Assembly (NCBI GenBank): GCA_021731025.1
Contig: JAKFYD010000028.1
Location: 1-60,124, forward strand
DNA: 60,124 nt
Origin: Pseudobdellovibrionaceae bacterium
GTDB lineage: Bacteria > Bdellovibrionota > Bdellovibrionia > Bdellovibrionales > Bdellovibrionaceae
Direction of reading: 5' to 3'
Made by a program: the position numbers and the translations under genes. A model generated the notes under the pieces. That model saw nothing but the letters and a program-made list of their open reading frames with translations, had not been told where the DNA came from and made no database searches. This document shows, one piece after another, positions 23,557 through 59,189 of the stretch; within the stretch, counting starts at the first letter, position 1; each line of letters begins with the position of its first letter.

Positions 23557-24492
23557 ATGACTTTTCACATCACCGCTTTTTATCGCTTTTCAAAAATTTC
23601 CGACGATTTGGATGTTCTCAAAAGTAAGATCACCGCGAAGGCTCAAGAACTGGACACCACTGGCCTTATGGTTCTTGGAGCTGAAGGAATCAATTCCACT
23701 ATTTCGGCTTCATCAGCTGAAACTCTGGCTGATTTTAAAAAATTCATTCAAGAGCTTTTAGGTATTGAAATTACAAATTTCAAGGATTCGTATGCCAACA
23801 AAAAACCATTTCGAAAATTCGTCGTTAAAGTTCGTGAGGAAATTGTTACTCTAGGGACGCCAGAACTAGTTCCCAACATGACAGAAAACAATCATCATCT
23901 TAGTCCCGCCGAGTGGAACGAAGTCATGAAAAACGAAAAAGATTATGTCATCATCGACACTCGAAATTGGTATGAATACAACATTGGCAGCTTCAAAGGT
24001 GCGATAAATCCTAACATTGATAAATTCACAGAATTTCCTAAGTATCTTGAAGAGCAAAAAGTTTCCAAAGACAAAAAGATGCTGATTTTTTGCACCGGAG
24101 GCATTCGTTGTGAAAAAGGCATCCTAGAACTTCAGCGACAAGGCTATCAAAATGTCTTTCAATTAGAAGGCGGCATCCTCAAATATTTGGAAGAATTCCC
24201 TAACGAACAATTTGAAGGCGAGTGTTTTGTTTTTGATCACCGCGTGGCCTTAGATCAAGACTTAAAACCAACAACAAAATATGGTCTTTGCCCGCATTGC
24301 GGGCAACCCGCTTCAATTTCCATCGACTGTAAACGCTGTGACACTCAAACTTTGATCTGTGGAGATTGCGAAAGACAAGAATGGAAAAACATCACCTGCT
24401 CAAAAAATTGCGCCTACCAATACCAACTCCACCCCGAAAGAAAAGCCCCACCCCAACAAATCTTCTGGAAACAACCAAAATCCCAACAGTAA
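23557..24492 (+). CDS. trhO: tRNA uridine(34) hydroxylase TrhO (rhodanese-like)
   Basis: Oxygen-dependent hydroxylase forming ho5U at the wobble position of tRNAs, formerly YceA; 311 aa. The N-terminal acylphosphatase-like domain (residues 1-95) contains GAEGINSTIS. The rhodanese domain (about 120-215) contains DTRNWYEYNIGSFKGAINPNI and the catalytic CTGGIRCEK with Cys179. A C-terminal cysteine-rich zinc-type module follows (CPHCGQPASISIDCKRCDTQT, then CGDCERQEW). GGAGG precedes the ATG. It is a single gene, followed by the structured element at 24550. Confidence 0.94.
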   Translation: MTFHITAFYRFSKISDDLDVLKSKITAKAQELDTTGLMVLGAEGINSTISASSAETLADFKKFIQELLGIEITNFKDSYANKKPFRKFVVKVREEIVTLGTPELVPNMTENNHHLSPAEWNEVMKNEKDYVIIDTRNWYEYNIGSFKGAINPNIDKFTEFPKYLEEQKVSKDKKMLIFCTGGIRCEKGILELQRQGYQNVFQLEGGILKYLEEFPNEQFEGECFVFDHRVALDQDLKPTTKYGLCPHCGQPASISIDCKRCDTQTLICGDCERQEWKNITCSKNCAYQYQLHPERKAPPQQIFWKQPKSQQ

Positions 24493-24549
24493 AAAAAACT
24501 TTTACAAAATCACATAAGATTAAGGAGAAAAACCGCACACCACTAAACT

Positions 24550-24679
24550 AAGAACGGCTCCTAATAAGCCCGCGGCCGAGGCGCGCAGGAGAGAGGCGCG
24601 GAGGCGTACGAACGTACGCCGCACAAGCCGACCGACCAAGCAACGAAGGACCCGGGTTTATTAGGAGTCGTTCGCTTAG
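24550..24679 (+). ncRNA. Putative structured RNA or mobile palindromic repeat
   Basis: About 25-base outer arms pair: CTAAG (24549-24553) with CTTAG (24675-24679), then CGGCTCCTAATAAGCCCG (24555-24572) with the complementary stretch at 24653-24670. Both mismatches in the long arm are G-U pairs if the plus strand is transcribed, but A-C mismatches on the minus strand, suggesting the plus strand is the functional RNA. Inside is an 8-bp hairpin (GGCGTACG-aa-CGTACGCC, 24603-24620) and the direct repeat GAGGCGCG at 24578 and 24593. The interior is far GC-richer than its neighbours and has no coding potential. The right arm runs into the stop codon of the gene at 24676. There is no T-run, so it is not a plain terminator. 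Type assignment is inference. Confidence 0.5.
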
Positions 24680-25371
24680 AGGATTAGTTCCATCATTAGG
24701 TAAACAACCGCCGTCAAAGCAAAACCGCTACTGACAACGCCTTTAACTGTGGCCATCGGTCCTAATTTTCCTTTGATGGCGTTAAACTCTAGTGCGCCAA
24801 CGAGGATCAAGAACGCGATATAATAGGTTGTACTGTTAGCCACGTCCATTTGTATGGGAAGATGTGCTCCTGCCAACATATAGAACAACATCGGAATCGA
24901 AAATAAAGTGTTGGTTCTTGAAGCCACCAAAGCACGAGCAGCTCGTGCTGGGACATCAGGAATAGGTTGTCCTCCGCCAGCAACCTGAGTTGCTGACTGG
25001 ATAATTACTTTTTGATGAGGCCAAATAATGAACCAAACGTTGAACCACATAAGAATCCCGAAGATCCCGCCTGTTAGAATTTTAACTCCCCAATCGCCTT
25101 GAAGAGAAAAACCAACGTAACCGGCCGTGTGCAACATCAGCAAACCTGTGACGAAGGTCCACATGGCTCCCCATCGAAACCACCATAAAGCAATCGGTAC
25201 CAACTTTTGCGTCGCTTGGGATTTGGTTGCTGCATCCGCCTGGGCCATAAAGGCACCTTGGGTAAAGTTAAAATAATAGAGATGACCAATCCATAAAAGG
25301 CCAAAAAAGACATGAAGCCATTTCAGGAAAAAATGAAGTCCCGGATAAGTGAGCAGTGCAAATTCCATCAT
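24676..25371 (-). CDS. PuuD/Urate_ox_N-like membrane protein
   Basis: A 231-aa protein with about seven hydrophobic segments. The N-terminus (FFLKWLHVFFGLLWIGHLYYFNFTQG), then LWWFRWGAMWTFVTGLLMLH and GILMWFNVWFIIWPHQKVII, resemble the membrane domain of urate hydroxylase PuuD-type proteins, with conserved His and Trp residues that could hold haem. The cytochrome c domain found in full PuuD is absent. Similar short proteins are widespread and uncharacterised, so a urate role is not implied. It stands alone, with the right arm of the 24.6 kb structured element overlapping its stop codon. Confidence 0.65.
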   Translation of the reverse strand: MMEFALLTYPGLHFFLKWLHVFFGLLWIGHLYYFNFTQGAFMAQADAATKSQATQKLVPIALWWFRWGAMWTFVTGLLMLHTAGYVGFSLQGDWGVKILTGGIFGILMWFNVWFIIWPHQKVIIQSATQVAGGGQPIPDVPARAARALVASRTNTLFSIPMLFYMLAGAHLPIQMDVANSTTYYIAFLILVGALEFNAIKGKLGPMATVKGVVSSGFALTAVVYLMMELIL

Positions 25372-34935: not shown

Positions 34936-36963
34936 TTAAGGACGAAAACGCGGTGGTCTTTCCGGTGATGGCCGCACTGGCCCGGGGCGCACTGGCCCGG
35001 GGCGCACGGGACCTGGCGTGGGTCGTGGCTCAACGCGTGGTCGCTCTGGTTGTGGCGCAGGTCGGACTGGCTCCGGAGATGGCCTTACTGGTGACGGACG
35101 AACTGGCTCTGGGCGTGGACGCACCGGCTCCGGAGATGGTCTTACGGGCCCAGGTCTTACTGGCTCTGGGCGTGGACGCACCGGCTCCGGAGATGGTCTT
35201 ACGGGCCCAGGTCTTACTGGCTCTGGGCGTGGACGCACCGGCTCCGGAGATGGTCTTACGGGCCCAGGTCTTACTGGCTCTGGGCGTGGACGCACCGGCT
35301 CCGGAGATGGTCTTACGGGCCCAGGTCTTACTGGCTCTGGGCGTGGACGAACGGGTTCTGGATTTGGACGAACAGGTCCCGGTCGAACGGGCTCAGGATT
35401 CGGACGGACTGGTCCAGGTGAAGGTCGCACTGGCCCTGGGCGTACCGGCTCAGGCCTCACTGGCCCCGGTCGTACCGGGCCGGGTCTGACCGGCCCTGGG
35501 CGAATCGGATCTGGACGATGAGGAGGTCGCACAGGATTTGGCGTTATCCAAGGGGCACAACGACGATCCCCGGGGGACCAGCGCTCGCGGGGTCCACAAG
35601 CTCGATCAATTTCCCGTCGCACGCAATAGCGGCGATTAAAATCGTAGTCTTCATAACCCTGGCAGCGAGGAACAAAATGTCTTTCACATCGACTAGAACC
35701 CCAGTTCCAAACTTCATCCCGATGACAACGAGAATAGTACGAACTCACTTCACAACGAGCATAAATCGAATTCCAGTACCAACCAATCGAGCAATAACCT
35801 ACAGCCGGGCGACAACGGCCAGCATAATTATCCCAGTATTCATTAGATCCACAAGTGTATTGCCAGATACGTAAACAAGAATTTGTTGAATAAGAATAGG
35901 TTGTTCCAATAGGACAAGTGTAAGGCAAGCGATCACAGCGATATTCAAATTGATTCCATCTGTAATTCAGAGGGCATCGAGGATAAGTGCGCATCACACA
36001 CTGACCTAAATAAGAATCAAAAACTTCGTTGTAGTTACAAGTAACAAAGGTTGGAGGAGCTGCGTAGGCCACGCAAGTGTTTGAATCCGGGTTATAAAAT
36101 GTTCCGGCCTCACAAACTGAGCTTCCGTTACCTTGTACACAATATCGCAAACTATCGTTGTAATAATAGCCTGCAGGACAAGCGTACTGATTTCCACTCT
36201 CGTCAAGGATATCAATTTTATACTGACGATAAACCTCGTAGAAGTCAGAGCTATTGACATCATTTTGCGTCCATAATCTTAAGATCAAATTTTTCTGTCC
36301 TGCACTTGAACTTTGACCTTGAATTAAGAAACGGTTCATCGACGTTTGAAATTGAACCTGGAAAGGCTCGATGCCGGTGTTGACCTGCTGTCCTTGTAAA
36401 GAGTTTTTTGCAACCCCCTGCGCCTGCACGTCGACAGGTTGACTGTAGTACTTATTCACTTGAGCAGAAGAAAGCGGGCTTTGTGTCTTAAACTTTAAAG
36501 GATAAGCGGTATCTTCTTTCGCATTCACACAGAGTTCTTCACGAACTTGTGAGCCCGAAGCTTCATCACGAGCATTGAGCTTAAAACACCAAGTCCCGGC
36601 AAACTGGGGATAACCTCGAAGTACAGCACGATTTGAATCTAGAGTTTGCACTTCTAAACCTGGCGGCAAAAATTCATCTTCATCAACAAACCACTGAAGT
36701 TGTGTCAGGTTTTGACCTGCGGCTGAAAGCTCAATTTCTTGATATTGATTTTGTTGCATTTGCAAACTTGCATGGTCGACTAACATCGAAATGTTGTTAG
36801 GATTTGCCAGAACTTTTTCGCCAACGGGTGCGACCGCTTGCGGACTTGAAGCATTGTTTGCCTGGCAAGCCAAAGTAAAAAGCAAAATAATAGGTGCATA
36901 AAAAAAGCGCGCGCTGAGTGATGGTTTTGGTGTTTCCAGAAAGCCCCCTTTAGATTCGGTCAA
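34936..36963 (-). CDS. Lipoprotein with ten C-X12-C repeats and a Pro-Arg repeat tail
   Basis: A protein of up to 675 aa. It has a lipoprotein signal with lipobox FTLAC (Cys about residue 33), then an Ig-like region (QLQWFVDEDEFLPPGLEV, then GYPQFAGTWCFKLNARDE, resembling putative Ig domains) to about residue 260. Ten consecutive modules follow, each exactly C-X12-C and rich in Tyr, Trp and Asn, joined by 6-11 residue linkers (about residues 263-475). The last 200 residues are PVRPGPVRPSPEPVRPRPE-type repeats, basic and probably extended. There is no ATG start: TTG at 36963 has no ribosome-binding site, while a CTG at 36939 follows AAGGGGG. It is likely surface-exposed, and the Pro-Arg tail could span or bind cell wall or polyanions (inference). 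Confidence 0.85.
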   Translation of the reverse strand: MTESKGGFLETPKPSLSARFFYAPIILLFTLACQANNASSPQAVAPVGEKVLANPNNISMLVDHASLQMQQNQYQEIELSAAGQNLTQLQWFVDEDEFLPPGLEVQTLDSNRAVLRGYPQFAGTWCFKLNARDEASGSQVREELCVNAKEDTAYPLKFKTQSPLSSAQVNKYYSQPVDVQAQGVAKNSLQGQQVNTGIEPFQVQFQTSMNRFLIQGQSSSAGQKNLILRLWTQNDVNSSDFYEVYRQYKIDILDESGNQYACPAGYYYNDSLRYCVQGNGSSVCEAGTFYNPDSNTCVAYAAPPTFVTCNYNEVFDSYLGQCVMRTYPRCPLNYRWNQFEYRCDRLPYTCPIGTTYSYSTNSCLRIWQYTCGSNEYWDNYAGRCRPAVGYCSIGWYWNSIYARCEVSSYYSRCHRDEVWNWGSSRCERHFVPRCQGYEDYDFNRRYCVRREIDRACGPRERWSPGDRRCAPWITPNPVRPPHRPDPIRPGPVRPGPVRPGPVRPEPVRPGPVRPSPGPVRPNPEPVRPGPVRPNPEPVRPRPEPVRPGPVRPSPEPVRPRPEPVRPGPVRPSPEPVRPRPEPVRPGPVRPSPEPVRPRPEPVRPGPVRPSPEPVRPRPEPVRPSPVRPSPEPVRPAPQPERPRVEPRPTPGPVRPGPVRPGPVRPSPERPPRFRP
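35105..35349. repeat. 57-bp perfect tandem repeats in the Pro-Arg coding region
   Basis: Four identical 57-bp copies begin at 35105, 35162, 35219 and 35276, each starting GGCTCTGGGCGTGGACGCAC, with a 17-base partial fifth copy at 35333. Each unit encodes 19 residues of the Pro-Arg tail of the lipoprotein on the minus strand. Weaker copies flank the block. Perfect identity suggests recent expansion by slippage, so copy number probably varies between strains. Confidence 0.95.
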
Positions 36964-37202
36964 TTTTTGATACCAGCTGCGTGCAACAGCAAAAGAAAGA
37001 CCATAATTAATTTTTCTTTTTCTTAAAAGTATTTCAAAAATATTGCAGGGAGTTATTTTAGAAGTTGTTAATTTGTCTCGTTGTTTTATAAACAGGTTTT
37101 TGTGAATGGAATTTATCGCCGGTTCTTTTTTGCACCGACCTTGAAAAGCTCGCCAAAATACCCCTCGCTAAAGGTCGTTTTGTCCCTCGACAAAAGATGA
37201 AA
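36964..37202. other. AT-rich spacer between the lipoprotein and AbiE genes
   Basis: About 240 bases with no convincing open frame. It must hold the promoter of the minus-strand lipoprotein gene, but I see no clear -35/-10 pair. It is AT-rich, with runs such as TTTTTCTTTTTCTTAAAAG. The AbiE operator begins directly to its right. Confidence 0.5.
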
Positions 37203-37310
37203 ATATATCCCTGTATGTGACACTTATTGTAACTTACTGGACCATTTTTGGATTAAATTTGATAAAATTAAGCCGATATGTTACAAATAGTGTCACATAC
37301 AGGGATATAT
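37203..37310 (+). promoter_or_regulatory. abiE operator: 31-base inverted repeats flanking the promoter
   Basis: The left arm (37203-37233) and right arm (37280-37310) are inverted copies of each other with only two mismatched positions out of 31. The core word is CCCTGTATGTGACACT and its complement. Between them lies a plausible -10 box TAAAAT (37263-37268) with a weak -35 near 37238-37245, so the arms bracket the promoter. The right arm ends two bases before the abiEi ATG. In characterised AbiE systems the antitoxin AbiEi binds two inverted repeats upstream of its gene and represses transcription; this layout fits that model. Confidence 0.8.
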
Positions 37311-37312
37311 TT

Positions 37313-40900: not shown

Positions 40901-43900
40901 GTTTGAACCTCAACAAAAGTTTCAACGGGTTGAACTTCTTGAATATCAGACTTTGTTAGCCATGAATGCATTTTAGCCAACAGATTGGTCGAATCCACAG
41001 GCTTAGTGATGTACTCCGACGCACCAGCCGCTAAGCACTCTTCCCTATCGCCCTTCATGGCCTTAGCGGTCAATGAAATGATGGGTAAATTCGCAAATTC
41101 TGGCATTTTGCGAATTTGTCTCATGGCTTCTAGTCCATCCATTTCTGGCATCATAGTGTCCATCAAAACCAGATCAATATCTGGATGATTCTGAAGACTT
41201 TGAAGCGCTAACTTCCCATTTTCTGCGTAGGAAACGGACATTCCTTGTTTTTCTAAAATGCTCGTAATCGCAAAAATATTTCTCATGTCATCGTCGACAA
41301 TCAAGATTTTTTTGCCATTGAAGTCGGCGTTTTGAGGAAGCTCGGAAATAACAAGCTCATGCTCTTCGGCAGATGGTCTCATCGGCTCTTGCCCCATGTA
41401 GTTCTGAGGCAAGAATAATGTAAAGGTACTTCCTTCACCCGGCACGCTATTGACTTCAATTGCACCACCCAGCAGTCGAGCAATTTCACGACTGATAGTT
41501 AAACCCAAACCAGTTCCACCGTACTTACGGCTCGTCGTTCCGTCAGCTTGCTGGAAAGCCTCGAAAATCAATTTCTGTTTATCTTCTGGAATTCCAATAC
41601 CGGTATCTCTAACAACGAAGGCTATAACATTTTTAGCATTCTCTAAAGTTTCCATAGAGAATTTTCTGTGTTTAGGCGCCAATTCTATTGTTAAAGAAAC
41701 ACTGCCTTTTTCAGTAAACTTAAAGGCGTTGGACAACAGATTTTTTAGGATCTGCTGAAGACGATTCTCATCGGTAAACATGCTTCTTGGAACATCGGGA
41801 GTCCGCGATGTTTTAAACTCTAAGCTCTTATGTTCCGCGATCGGCTTAAAAGTTTGCTCAAGATATTCTTTCACTTTTGGCAACTGAATGGCCGTTGGAT
41901 CAACTGGCATTTTTCCAGCTTCCACTTTAGAAAGATCCAGAATTTCATTGATCAATGCTAAGAGATCTTGTCCTGCAGAATGAATGGTTCCCGCATATTT
42001 GATCTGTTCATTGCTCAAATTGTGATCTTTATTTTCCAAAAGATTTTTAGACAAGATCAGCAAGCTGTTCAGTGGTGTTCGAAGTTCATGGGACATATTT
42101 GCCAAGAATTCGGATTTGTATCGTGAAATTAATGACAATTGTTCCGCTTTTTCTTCCACGCTTCGTGAAGCCAGCTCAACTTCTTGATTTTTAACTTCAA
42201 GCAGCTTCGCTTTGTCTTCCAGCTCTTTCGCTTGCGCTTCCAGTTCGGCATTGGATTTTTTCAGCTCTTGTAACAGCTCTTCCGTTCTCATTGAAGACGA
42301 AATCATATTCAAGATAACACCGATGGAATCCATCAGCTGATCCAAGAAATTCAAGTAGTTCTGAGTGAACGGAACAAAAGAAGCAAGTTCGATGACCGCT
42401 TTCAGTTCTCCTTCAAAGAGTACTGGTAAAACGATGATGTTTTTTGGAGCAGCCTCGCCCGTGCTCGAAGAAATGCGGATGTAATCAGAAGGAGGATTCG
42501 TGATCAAAATCGATTTCTTTTCGAAAGCGCATTGACCAACAAGACCTTCTTTCAATTTGTAACGATGAGATAAATTTTTTCTTTCGTTGTAAGCATAATT
42601 TGCGATCATCACCAATTCGGTGTCTTCATGATCACCTTCAGCCATAAAGAAAGTTCCCAAACGAGCATCCACCAGCGGAGTCAGTTCTGACATGATCAAC
42701 TGTGCCACAGAATTGATACTGCGTTGACCTTGCATCATTCCTGAAAATTTCGCTAAATTTGTTTTCAGCCAATCTTGCTCGGTATTTTTTTGAGTCGTGT
42801 CTTTTAAATTTCCAATCATTTGATTGATATTATTTTTTAAAGCCGCAACTTCTCCTTCGGCTTCAACAGTGATGGATCGTGTGAGATCCCCGCGTGTGAC
42901 CGCAGTCGAAACTTCCGCGATGGCTCGCACTTGAGAGGTCAAATTCCCAGCGAGCTGATTCACGTTATCTGTTAAATCTTTCCATGTTCCCGCTGCACCC
43001 GGAACTTTAGCTTGTCCGCCCAGTTTACCTTCGATACCCACTTCCCGTGCAACCGTAGTCACTTGGTCAGCGAAAGTTCGAAGTGTATCTGTCATGTTGT
43101 TGATTGTTTCTGCTAGAGCTGCCACTTCCCCTTTAGCTTCAAGGACGAATTTTTGTGACAAGTCACCATTTGCAACCGCAGTCACAACTTTCACGATACC
43201 TCGCACTTGAGTCGTTAAGTTTGACGCCATGAAATTCACGTTATCTGTTAAGTCTTTCCATGTTCCAGAAACTCCAGGCACTTTCGCTTGTCCCCCCAGT
43301 TTTCCTTCGGTACCCACTTCTTTCGCCACACGAGTAACCTCGGCTGCGAATGAATTCAGCTGATCCACCATCACGTTGATCGTGCTTTTCAGTTCAAGGA
43401 TTTCACCTTTGGCATCAACAGTAATTTTTTGTGACAAGTCCCCATTGGCAACCGCTGTTGTCACTTTCGCGATATTACGAACTTGCGCTGTCAAATTTCC
43501 AGCGAGTTGGTTCACGTTATCTGTGAGATCTTTCCAAGTTCCAGAAACCCCTTTTACATCAGCTTGTCCGCCCAGTTTTCCTTCGGTACCCACTTCTTTC
43601 GCCACACGAGTAACCTCGGCTGCGAATGAATTCAGCTGATCCACCATCACGTTGATTGTATTTTTTAGCTCAAGGATTTCGCCTTTAGCATCAACAGTAA
43701 TTTTTTGTGACAAGTCCCCATTGGCAACCGCTGTTGTTACCTTCGCGATATTTCGAACTTGGCCCGTTAAATTTCCTGCAAGACCGTTCACGTTATCCGT
43801 TAAATCTTTCCAAGTTCCCGCGACTCCTTTTACGTCAGCTTGTCCACCAAGCTTCCCTTCGGTACCAACCTCTTTCGCAACACGAGTTACCTCGGCTGCG

Positions 43901-46134
43901 AAACTTCGGAGAGTGTCCACCATGATATTGATTGTATTTTTTAATTCAAAGATTTCGCCCTTAGCATCGACTGTGATTTTTTGAGATAAGTCACCATTTG
44001 CAACCGCTGTTGTTACCTTCGCGATATTACGAACTTGCGCTGTCAGATTTCCTGCAAGACCATTCACGTTATCCGTAAGATCTTTCCATGTTCCAGAAAC
44101 CCCTTTAACGTCTGCTTGTCCGCCCAGTTTTCCTTCTGTACCCACTTCTTTTGCCACACGAGTTACCTCCGCAGCGAATGAAGAGAGCTGATCCACCATC
44201 ACGTTAATTGTATTTTTAAGTTCAAGGATTTCGCCTTTAGCATCAACAGTAATTTTTTGAGATAAGTCCCCATTGGCAACCGCTGTTGTTACCTTCGCGA
44301 TATTTCGCACTTGCGCTGTTAAATTTCCTGCAAGACCGTTCACGTTATCCGTTAAGTCTTTCCAAGTTCCGGAAACCCCTTTTACATCAGCTTGTCCACC
44401 CAGCTTCCCTTCGGTACCCACTTCTTTCGCAACCCGTGTAACTTCCGCTGCAAAACTTCTTAGAGTGTCCACCATGATATTAATTGTATTTTTTAATTCA
44501 AAGATTTCGCCCTTAGCATCGACTGTGATTTTTTGAGATAAGTCACCATTGGCAACCGCAGTTGTCACTTTCGCGATATTACGAACTTGGCCCGTTAAAT
44601 TTCCTGCAAGACCGTTCACGTTATCCGTTAAATCTTTCCAAGTTCCCGCGACTCCTTTTACGTCAGCTTGTCCACCGAGTTTACCTTCGGTACCAACCTC
44701 TTTCGCAACCCGTGTAACTTCGGCTGCGAATCGACGAAGTGTATCCACCATCGTATTGATAGTGTCTTTCAACTCGAAGATTTCACCTTTCGCGTCAACA
44801 GTAATTTTTTGAGATAAGTCTCCAATTGCAACCGCTGTTGTTACTTTCGCGATATTACGAACTTGAGCTGTCAGATTCCCCGCAAGACCATTCACATTAT
44901 CCGTTAAATCCTTCCAAGTACCAGACACACCTTTAACGTCAGCTTGTCCGCCCAGTTTTCCTTCGGTACCAACCTCTTTCGCCACACGAGTTACCTCGGC
45001 TGCGAATGAGTTCAGCTGATCCACCATCGTATTAATTGTATTTTTTAATTCTGAAATTTCACCACGGGCATCAACGGTAATTTTTTGAGATAAGTCACCG
45101 TTTGCAACCGCTGTTGTTACTTTCGCGATATTACGAACTTGTCCTGTCAGATTTCCAGCAAGACTGTTCACATTGTCTGTGAGATCTTTCCATGTTCCAG
45201 AAACCCCTTTAACGACCGCTTGTCCGCCCAATTTTCCTTCGGTACCAACCTCTTTCGCCACACGAGTAACCTCTGCCGCAAAAGAAGAGAGCTGATCCAC
45301 CATGACGTTAATTGTATTTTTCAATTCGTAGATTTCACCTTTGGCATCGACTGTGATCTTTTGTGACAAGTCACCTTTTGCAACCGCCGTTGTCACTTTC
45401 GCGATATTTCGCACTTGATCTGTCAAATTCGAGGCAAGACCATTCACGTTATCAACCAGATCCCGCCAAATTCCCGAAGCTCCTTTAACGTCAGCTTGTC
45501 CGCCCAGTTTCCCTTGTGTTCCCACTTCCTTCGCCACCCGAGTCACCTCAGAGGCGAATGAGTTCAGCTGATCCACCATCGTATTCACGGTCATCCCGAT
45601 ACGGTGATACTCACCCTTCAGAGGTCGTCCGTCGATTTCCATCGACATTTTTTGTGACAAGTCCCCTTTAGCCACCGAGGTGATAACCCGTGCTGCTTCA
45701 CTTGTCGGCTGAACAAGAGCACCAATGAGGTCATTCAAATCATTAACACTGCTCGCCCAACTGCCTTTGATATTTCCAATAGTCACTCGCTCGGTCATCT
45801 TTCCTTCGAGACCAACGATGTTTCGTACACGTGTGATCTCACCGGCCATATTTTCATTGAGTTCGATGATGTCATTGATAATTTCGCCAATGTCGGAAAT
45901 GACACCTTCCTGATCCACATTCATACGCACGGAAAAGTCACCGGCCCGAACGGATTTGACAACATACAAAAGTTGTTTGAGTTGCTGACGTGAAGTTTTA
46001 TCAGCGTGGTGAAGTGGCGATGGGAAGTTGTCGTCTTTATCGACTTTCCGCTTTGCTCGAAGTATTACACTTTCTGGAATTTTTGTTTTTTTGCCCGTAG
46101 AAACCGATAAAGATTTATCCTGAGATGCCTTCAT
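40897..46134 (-). CDS. Giant soluble HAMP-array hybrid histidine kinase
   Basis: A 1745-aa protein with no membrane segment. Residues 1-192 include divergent HAMP-like units. Residues 193-1112 are ten tandem 92-aa units (for example [20 protein letters not shown] at each start) forming a poly-HAMP array. A GAF domain follows (about 1125-1285), then a coiled coil, HisKA ([19 protein letters not shown]), HATPase ([32 protein letters not shown]) and a C-terminal receiver ([14 protein letters not shown]). The arrangement resembles group III fungal osmosensing kinases and related bacterial proteins. GAGGAG precedes the ATG at 46134. It lies between the OmpR-type regulator gene and a second hybrid kinase in one operon. 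Confidence 0.95.
42799..45558. repeat. Ten 276-bp tandem coding repeats (HAMP array)
   Basis: Each 92-residue HAMP unit corresponds to 276 bases. The central eight units are very alike in DNA, while the first (near 45558) and the last two (42799-43350) diverge. Small variants recur in the loops (VSGTWKDL or [15 protein letters not shown] or LTGQVRN; MVDQLNS, MVDTLRS or MVDQLSS). The patchwork of shared variants suggests duplication plus gene conversion between units. Confidence 0.95.
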
Positions 46135-59134: not shown

Positions 59135-59189
59135 TTCAGTATTCTGTACATGAATTCAAGATTCTCGAATTCATGTACAGAATACTGAA
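59135..59189. repeat. 23-bp perfect inverted repeat
   Basis: The left arm (59135-59157) begins TTCAGTATTCTGTACATGAA, and the right arm (59167-59189) is its exact complement, separated by nine bases (AAGATTCTC). The arms could extrude a cruciform, form an RNA hairpin or bind a protein. There is no T-run, so it is not an ordinary terminator. Confidence 0.9.

Follow-up and report, generated by a model that had tools for sequence, protein, structure and literature searches.

The window, by which we mean the whole stretch of 60,124 nucleotides analysed here from a Pseudobdellovibrionaceae bacterium, contains a GC-rich structured element between two convergent genes. On its left, trhO (23557-24492, plus strand), encoding a tRNA uridine(34) hydroxylase (NCBIfam NF001133, E 7.5e-72), ends 59 nt before the element; on its right, only 2 nt separate the element from the stop codon (24676-24678) of a minus-strand gene (24676-25371) for a 231-aa PuuD-like membrane protein (Pfam Urate_ox_N). 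The element is delimited by two outer arms of 26 nt each, 85% complementary and spaced by 70 nt, namely GAACGGCTCCTAATAAGCCCGCGGCC at 24552-24577 and GGACCCGGGTTTATTAGGAGTCGTTC at 24648-24673. Folded as plus-strand RNA, 24552-24673 reaches -68.5 kcal/mol (z -6.98; 0 of 200 shuffles equal or better), and the minus strand reaches -66.7 kcal/mol (z -4.94). The GC content is ~0.58-0.60, as against ~0.39-0.45 in the surroundings (120-base windows). Arms, fold and composition thus bear out an earlier note, made from the DNA letters alone, which had described a structured GC-rich element with paired arms, and its remark that the arm mismatches become G-U pairs on the plus strand also holds for the window copy. 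Likewise, in agreement with that note, we found neither a long T-run nor any ORF of at least 60 aa across the element.

Between the arms, a conserved GC-rich core (24578-24647) carries the family motifs GAGGCG ... GCGGAGGC-hairpin-GCCGCACAAG ... CAACGAAGG, which correspond to invariant or nearly invariant alignment columns. The word that the earlier note had seen repeated in the core is a direct repeat (GAGGCGCGCAGG / GAGGCGCGGAGG, 24578-24604) of GAGGCGCG, starting at 24578 and 24593; in a copy on C4 of the same genome, the stretch between the two repeats has been lost. The apical hairpin, GGCGTACG-AA-CGTACGCC at 24603-24620, occurs in the variants GTAC, CTAC and GTGC, and all seven pairs of its helix have changed on both sides among copies, with 99% of cells paired. 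Each arm includes a short A/T tract: AATAA (24563-24567), in the position of a U-tract if the minus strand is transcribed, and TTTATT (24657-24662), which resembles the plus-strand U-tract of a terminator. Directly outside the left arm lies a YTAR-type tetranucleotide, CTAA (24548-24551), a possible insertion target, and the right arm is bordered by another one, TTAG (24676-24679), which includes the stop codon of the minus-strand gene. Other repetitive sequences in the window comprise a 276-nt unit repeated ten times in tandem, with 60-90% similarity between units, at 42812-45595 (a long repetitive coding or structural array), nested G-rich tandem repeats of 57 and 15 nt at 34949-35514, probably a low-complexity Gly-rich protein region, and strong inverted repeats at 37201-37312 (49-nt arms, 82% complementary) and 59135-59189 (27-nt arms, 96% complementary, with a 1-nt loop).

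A dispersed family with covarying arms

A BLASTN search with the element hit about a dozen dispersed places in its own genome, and a covariance model (R1, 21 copies) retrieved 21 dispersed copies there, belonging to two subfamilies, A (the window type) and B ('GATCAAGGCCGCACGACCGAGG...GGGAGGAGAACGCAGAGAT'). These copies, together with those of other genomes, settle favourably the question of whether the element is unique, on which the earlier note had made its reading depend. As for the covariance search that it proposed, R1 gave matches in 55 of the 141 genomes of the order, and a second model (R2, 96 copies, 90 of them distinct) in 118 of the 369 genomes of Bdellovibrionota, about a third, the E-values of both custom models being rough. 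Copies are about 95-125 bp long and number 10-31 per genome, and most genomes of the order have none, nor does G001, an 81% complete genome of the same genus as the window. Bdellovibrio bacteriovorus appears to carry more than 20 copies. Among 40 named genomes of other groups, we found matches in Pelosinus fermentans JBW45, a planctomycete, a Nitrospirales metagenome-assembled genome, Pseudoalteromonas and others; those of Pelosinus, read by eye, have 'CAGATGCTAGGCGCGACGAG ... GCAACGACGCAGATG' motifs in common with the family, whereas the weaker ones in the remaining groups must be treated with caution. An exact search with a 16-mer of the arm produced scattered matches in unrelated taxa, the arm being the wrong part to search with. 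The Bdellovibrio-type consensus had no match in a phage collection and one in a plasmid search, a copy at 85% identity (AP029178.1, 32509-32616) under an annotated hypothetical protein on the 48-kb plasmid of Bdellovibrio sp. HAGR004; the plasmid search with the window copy as query yielded none. Copies may also be combined: at G000:C9 34954-35069 a subfamily-A copy replaces the apical hairpin of a subfamily-B copy, and on G000:C55 a fragment of subfamily B lies beside a subfamily-A copy. The window element had no Rfam match, either at the gathering threshold or at E<=10, and the open-access literature that we searched held no description of the family, which apparently is an undescribed group of hairpin repeats.

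The arms are maintained as pairs across the family. RNAalifold predicted 31 pairs from the 21 copies of the genome, 21 of them with two-sided changes. In the alignment of 96 copies (90 distinct), 95.5% of cells are paired; redealing the 3' letters lowers this to 68.2% and sliding to 33-40%. Two-sided changes affect 28 of the 31 pairs, and the covariation score is 0.70 versus 0.17. Having been fitted to the model, this alignment is biased in its favour, and kinship among the copies raises such counts as well, yet the margin is very large. Sequence varies most in the outermost arms, with near-complete difference between copies, and these arms are nevertheless paired at each locus (for example GGAACCTCTTCTGA/TCAGAAGAGGTTCC, CTGAGGCTTCCCAA/TTGGGAAGCCTCAG and AAATTATCTTTTA/TAAAAGATAATTT). 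Arm differences between orthologous copies of two close species include two-sided Watson-Crick replacements. The alternative contemplated by the earlier note, that the arms are not conserved as pairs, is therefore contradicted by the 95.5% of paired cells, and selection would be the cause of this retained pairing. As to the strand, strand-neutral arm alignments, in which A-C is the minus-strand counterpart of G-U, gave plus-strand G-U versus A-C counts of 39:3 in a Bdellovibrio genome (G036), 42:3 in G033, 14:2 in the genome of the window and 6:2 elsewhere, and the plus-strand minimum free energy is the lower one in 83 of 102 copies. With the first three of these counts, the wobble bias designates the plus strand as the folded one throughout the family, as the earlier note had surmised. 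It identifies a strand and does not discriminate RNA from single-stranded DNA, since in DNA, too, G-T is the more favourable mismatch.

Conserved internal-loop motifs flanked by covarying stems would suit a structured RNA, either a trans-acting sRNA or an element of RNA processing or stability, whose core binds protein or RNA and whose copies are genes or 3' ends, and in Pelosinus and Nitrospirales the location of copies, in sense orientation, within rRNA and tRNA spacers (see below) points in the same direction. We consider this distinctly unlikely. The eight attack-phase sRNAs described in B. bacteriovorus (PMC3627812) have coordinates that coincide with no copy of G036, taken as HD100; about half of the loci have no flanking gene that would transcribe the plus strand; and both the absence of an Rfam match and the turnover of copies between close species argue against it.

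Position at gene ends

With all copies oriented as in the window and flanking genes taken from simple ORF calls, the right-hand gene is mostly on the minus strand, and in 16 of the 23 copies of G036, 19 of 26 in G033 and 12 of 21 in the genome of the window the stop codon of such an opposite-strand gene is no more than 20 nt from the arm; a left-hand gene has its stop codon at this distance in only 3, 4 and 6 copies, respectively. The earlier note had suggested a processed 3' UTR of trhO. As stated, this is not supported: in most copies the association is with the stop codon of the gene on the opposite strand, and in other genomes (G005 and G006) the PuuD-like and trhO genes are convergent and adjacent with no element. 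About half of the copies have a convergent left-hand gene, and about half lie between co-directional genes, where bidirectional termination is less obviously needed.

Bdellovibrio-type copies (TCAAAAAGG ... CCTTTTTCA) have an A5/T5 tract beside GC stems (GGCC-TTTTT), an arrangement that, as far as sequence can tell, marks a bidirectional intrinsic terminator, here provided with an additional outer clamp. The AATAA and TTTATT of the window copy are degenerate forms of these tracts; its U-tracts are weak (UUUAUU and UUAUU) and a simple terminator scan of the window gave no score above shuffles. At about 8 of 12 sites without the element, judged by eye, an ordinary hairpin terminator takes its place in the sister genome (for example AAAAAGGCTCCCGATGGGAGCCTTTTG). 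The element would thus act as a bidirectional transcription terminator of the adjoining gene or genes. It has in common with intrinsic (Rho-independent) bidirectional terminators its location at gene ends, a GC stem next to an A/T tract and this interchange at orthologous sites, but it is far longer than termination needs, its stem continues past the U-tract, clear in Bdellovibrio-type copies and weak in the window copy, and it has a conserved core and is mobile. We also considered that the arms were the stem of an older terminator entered by the element at its loop, and rejected this idea, given that the arm sequences are missing from empty sites and the right arm is not followed by a T-run.

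Mobility and orientation relative to replication

The dispersed copies, their presence or absence at orthologous sites and recent, near-identical copies with TWA duplications all lend strong support to one suggestion of the earlier note, a family of small mobile repeats. G036 and G033, with flanking sequences mostly 87-97% identical, have many orthologous copies, and at least 12 occur in one of the two genomes only. Two clean cases, with flanks ~90-95% identical, are G036 3422461 (copy-less allele GGTAAT-CTT-AAAAAAAC) and G033 470322, whose copy-less allele, AAATAA-GGAT-TTATTC, has no terminator. Recent copies were seen in G181, a genome of another class with about 12 near-identical copies, of which 11 are full-length and 95-100% identical at separate loci. 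All 11 have identical GRGCCTATCCCAAAACC ends, and arms are present in all copies of the family. The nine G181 copies that were read at both ends all lie at a YTAR site with TTA/TTA or TAA/TAA as direct flanks, and a truncated tenth copy retains TTA/TTA. Read from sequence, these flanks are a 3-bp TWA target duplication. A TWA/YTAR target leads to placement at gene ends, because TAA and TAG are stop codons. Among the older copies of the genome of the window, including the window copy itself, target duplication is not evident. One copy of G036 (~747.0-747.2 kb) contains a 64-nt insert with two small REP-like hairpins, flanked by ACAA and missing in the G033 orthologue (3026673).

Short, non-coding, multi-copy and patchily distributed, with inverted-repeat ends and, in recent copies, a direct 3-bp TWA duplication at a YTAR-type target, the element resembles the MITEs and other non-autonomous DDE derivatives of bacteria. 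It departs from them in that nearly the whole element is one long covarying hairpin, its core is conserved across genera, its old arms have diverged and still pair, and its replication polarity is near-absolute. No longer element with the same ends was found in G181, G180 or G182, and a lone element end on contig C38, examined as the possible end of an autonomous partner, proved to be a truncated copy. As MITEs have such partners and none was found here, we class the element as working like a MITE and assign it to no named MITE family. ERIC (IRU) sequences, which are enterobacterial, are imperfect palindromes of ~127 bp found in intergenic, transcribed regions. Compared by description only, they are alike in size, palindromic structure and intergenic location; we know of no report of arm replacement with compensation or of replication polarity as features of ERIC.

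That ordinary terminators and the element interchange at orthologous sites could also mean that these are bidirectional terminators evolved by the host, not mobile in their own right, whose core is shared by gene conversion or by template switching at A-run/T-run microhomology and whose arms are kept by selection or quasi-palindrome correction. The two-sided arm changes between orthologues are in line with this, as are the orthologous copies at G036 923272, 2895911 and 2005066, which at 0.80-0.82 identity differ more than their flanks do, as conversion would produce. We nonetheless regard such an origin as unlikely: in G181, the TWA duplications and the near-identity of copies at separate loci indicate insertion as a unit, the insertion at G033 470322 took place cleanly at a site without a terminator, and the polarity described below would have no explanation.

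Orientation follows replication. In G036, dnaA lies at 43-1416 and the GC skew is positive to at least 1.90 Mb and negative from 2.23 Mb; all 23 copies are replication-oriented, on the minus strand before 1.6 Mb and on the plus strand after 2.0 Mb, one of them (2.005 Mb) near the terminus. The same rule holds for 25 of 26 copies in G033, 30 of 31 in G007 and 24 of 25 in G070, all complete genomes, with the origin of G007 and G070 assumed at coordinate 0; these four genomes share copies and their counts are not independent. The copy at G033 1459006 breaks the rule; it is the second of two inverted copies ~160 bp apart, the other being at 1458725, and is missing in G036. Gene strand bias was discarded as the cause of the polarity since only 54.8% of sampled G036 genes are on the leading strand, against which 23/23 has p ~1e-6. 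Tested independently by local GC skew, 18 of the 21 copies in the genome of the window follow the rule (p 0.0015), the window copy (skew -0.08) among them, as do 10 of 10 recent copies in G181, 6 of 7 in G024 and 2 of 3 in G057. It is the leading-strand template that corresponds to the folded plus strand. Since the near-identical copies of G181 conform to the rule already, orientation is probably fixed when the element inserts, as it is for Tn7/TnsE and IS200/IS605 (PMC5371812). The copies of Pelosinus have the opposite polarity, which restricts the rule to Bdellovibrionota and not the whole superfamily: relatives of the element in P. fermentans JBW45 and Nitrospirales lie in 16S-23S spacers, behind the 5S rRNA or among tRNA genes, their plus strand running in the sense of the RNA.

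Orientation by replication direction is known for Tn7 (TnsE), for IS200/IS605 elements such as IS608 and for beta-clamp-binding transposases (PMC5371812); those elements are autonomous, whereas here a non-coding element is alone oriented, at 95-100% in several genomes. The trait invites the idea of a REP-like or IS200/IS605-derived element moved through single-stranded DNA by a Y1 (RAYT) transposase, which would account for both the polarity and the folded-strand signature. The better folding of the plus strand agrees with it, and Y1_Tnp genes occur in 49 of 60 relatives, including the genome of the window (8 matches). Being so near-ubiquitous, these genes do not predict the presence of the element, and their distribution was set aside as uninformative. 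IS200/IS605 transposition is not known to make target duplications, and the direct 3-bp TWA duplications do not fit it. Moreover, the element folds on the leading-strand template and not on the lagging-strand template used by IS608. REP and REPIN sequences (TnpA_REP) are, like the element, dispersed extragenic palindromes with a possible link to single-stranded DNA and Y1 transposases; however, REPs are 20-50 nt long with a 5' GTAG (PMC8266576), whereas the family has 95-125 nt, conserved internal loops and no GTAG guide. We therefore consider a Y1-driven element quite unlikely. A near-absolute orientation might also betray a replication-directed DNA signal, KOPS-like or a polar fork barrier, with orientation under selection. 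This is highly improbable in view of the 10-31 copies per genome, the lack of copies in G001, a congener, and in the majority of genomes of the order, the placement tied to stop codons and a polarity that is complete already among near-identical recent copies.

A possible portable terminator

We favour, with only slightly more belief than doubt, a mobile hairpin, MITE-like and fork-polar, that would terminate transcription in both directions. The dispersal, compensatory pairing, wobble preference, stop-codon position, presence/absence patterns, TWA duplications and orientation of the family come directly from our computations. The mechanism that may connect them starts from a non-autonomous element transposing as a unit, with the arms as terminal inverted repeats. 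A putative DDE-type transposase, supplied in trans and sensing the fork, would target YTAR/TWA sites, the stop codons TAA and TAG among them, and duplicate 3 bp, the orientation of the insertion being set by the passing replication fork. Once inserted, the long plus-strand hairpin and the A/T tracts beside GC stems would terminate transcription in both directions, and the element would persist where it is useful as a terminator, a use that would keep the drifting arms paired. This pairing might reflect selection on termination or, instead, hairpin-templated correction during replication. The stronger plus-strand hairpin would face transcription running against the fork, and orientation may be selected to stop head-on or antisense transcripts before the leading-strand gene.

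A broader and more tentative proposal, which we doubt more than we believe, is that mobile 'portable terminators' exist in several phyla, with a folded core read by the mobilising enzyme at the fork. They would land in fixed orientation at stop codons as ready-made terminators, stronger against head-on transcription, and their arms would be re-sculpted by coupled changes. A selfish element would, on this proposal, be spreading the transcription-termination landscape of a lineage. Small mobile palindromes were already known; one uniting near-absolute polarity, stop-codon placement, interchange with ordinary terminators, arms that change completely and yet stay paired, and a core recognisable well beyond one genus would make two questions directly testable, namely how transposition reads the direction of the fork and whether terminators spread selfishly.
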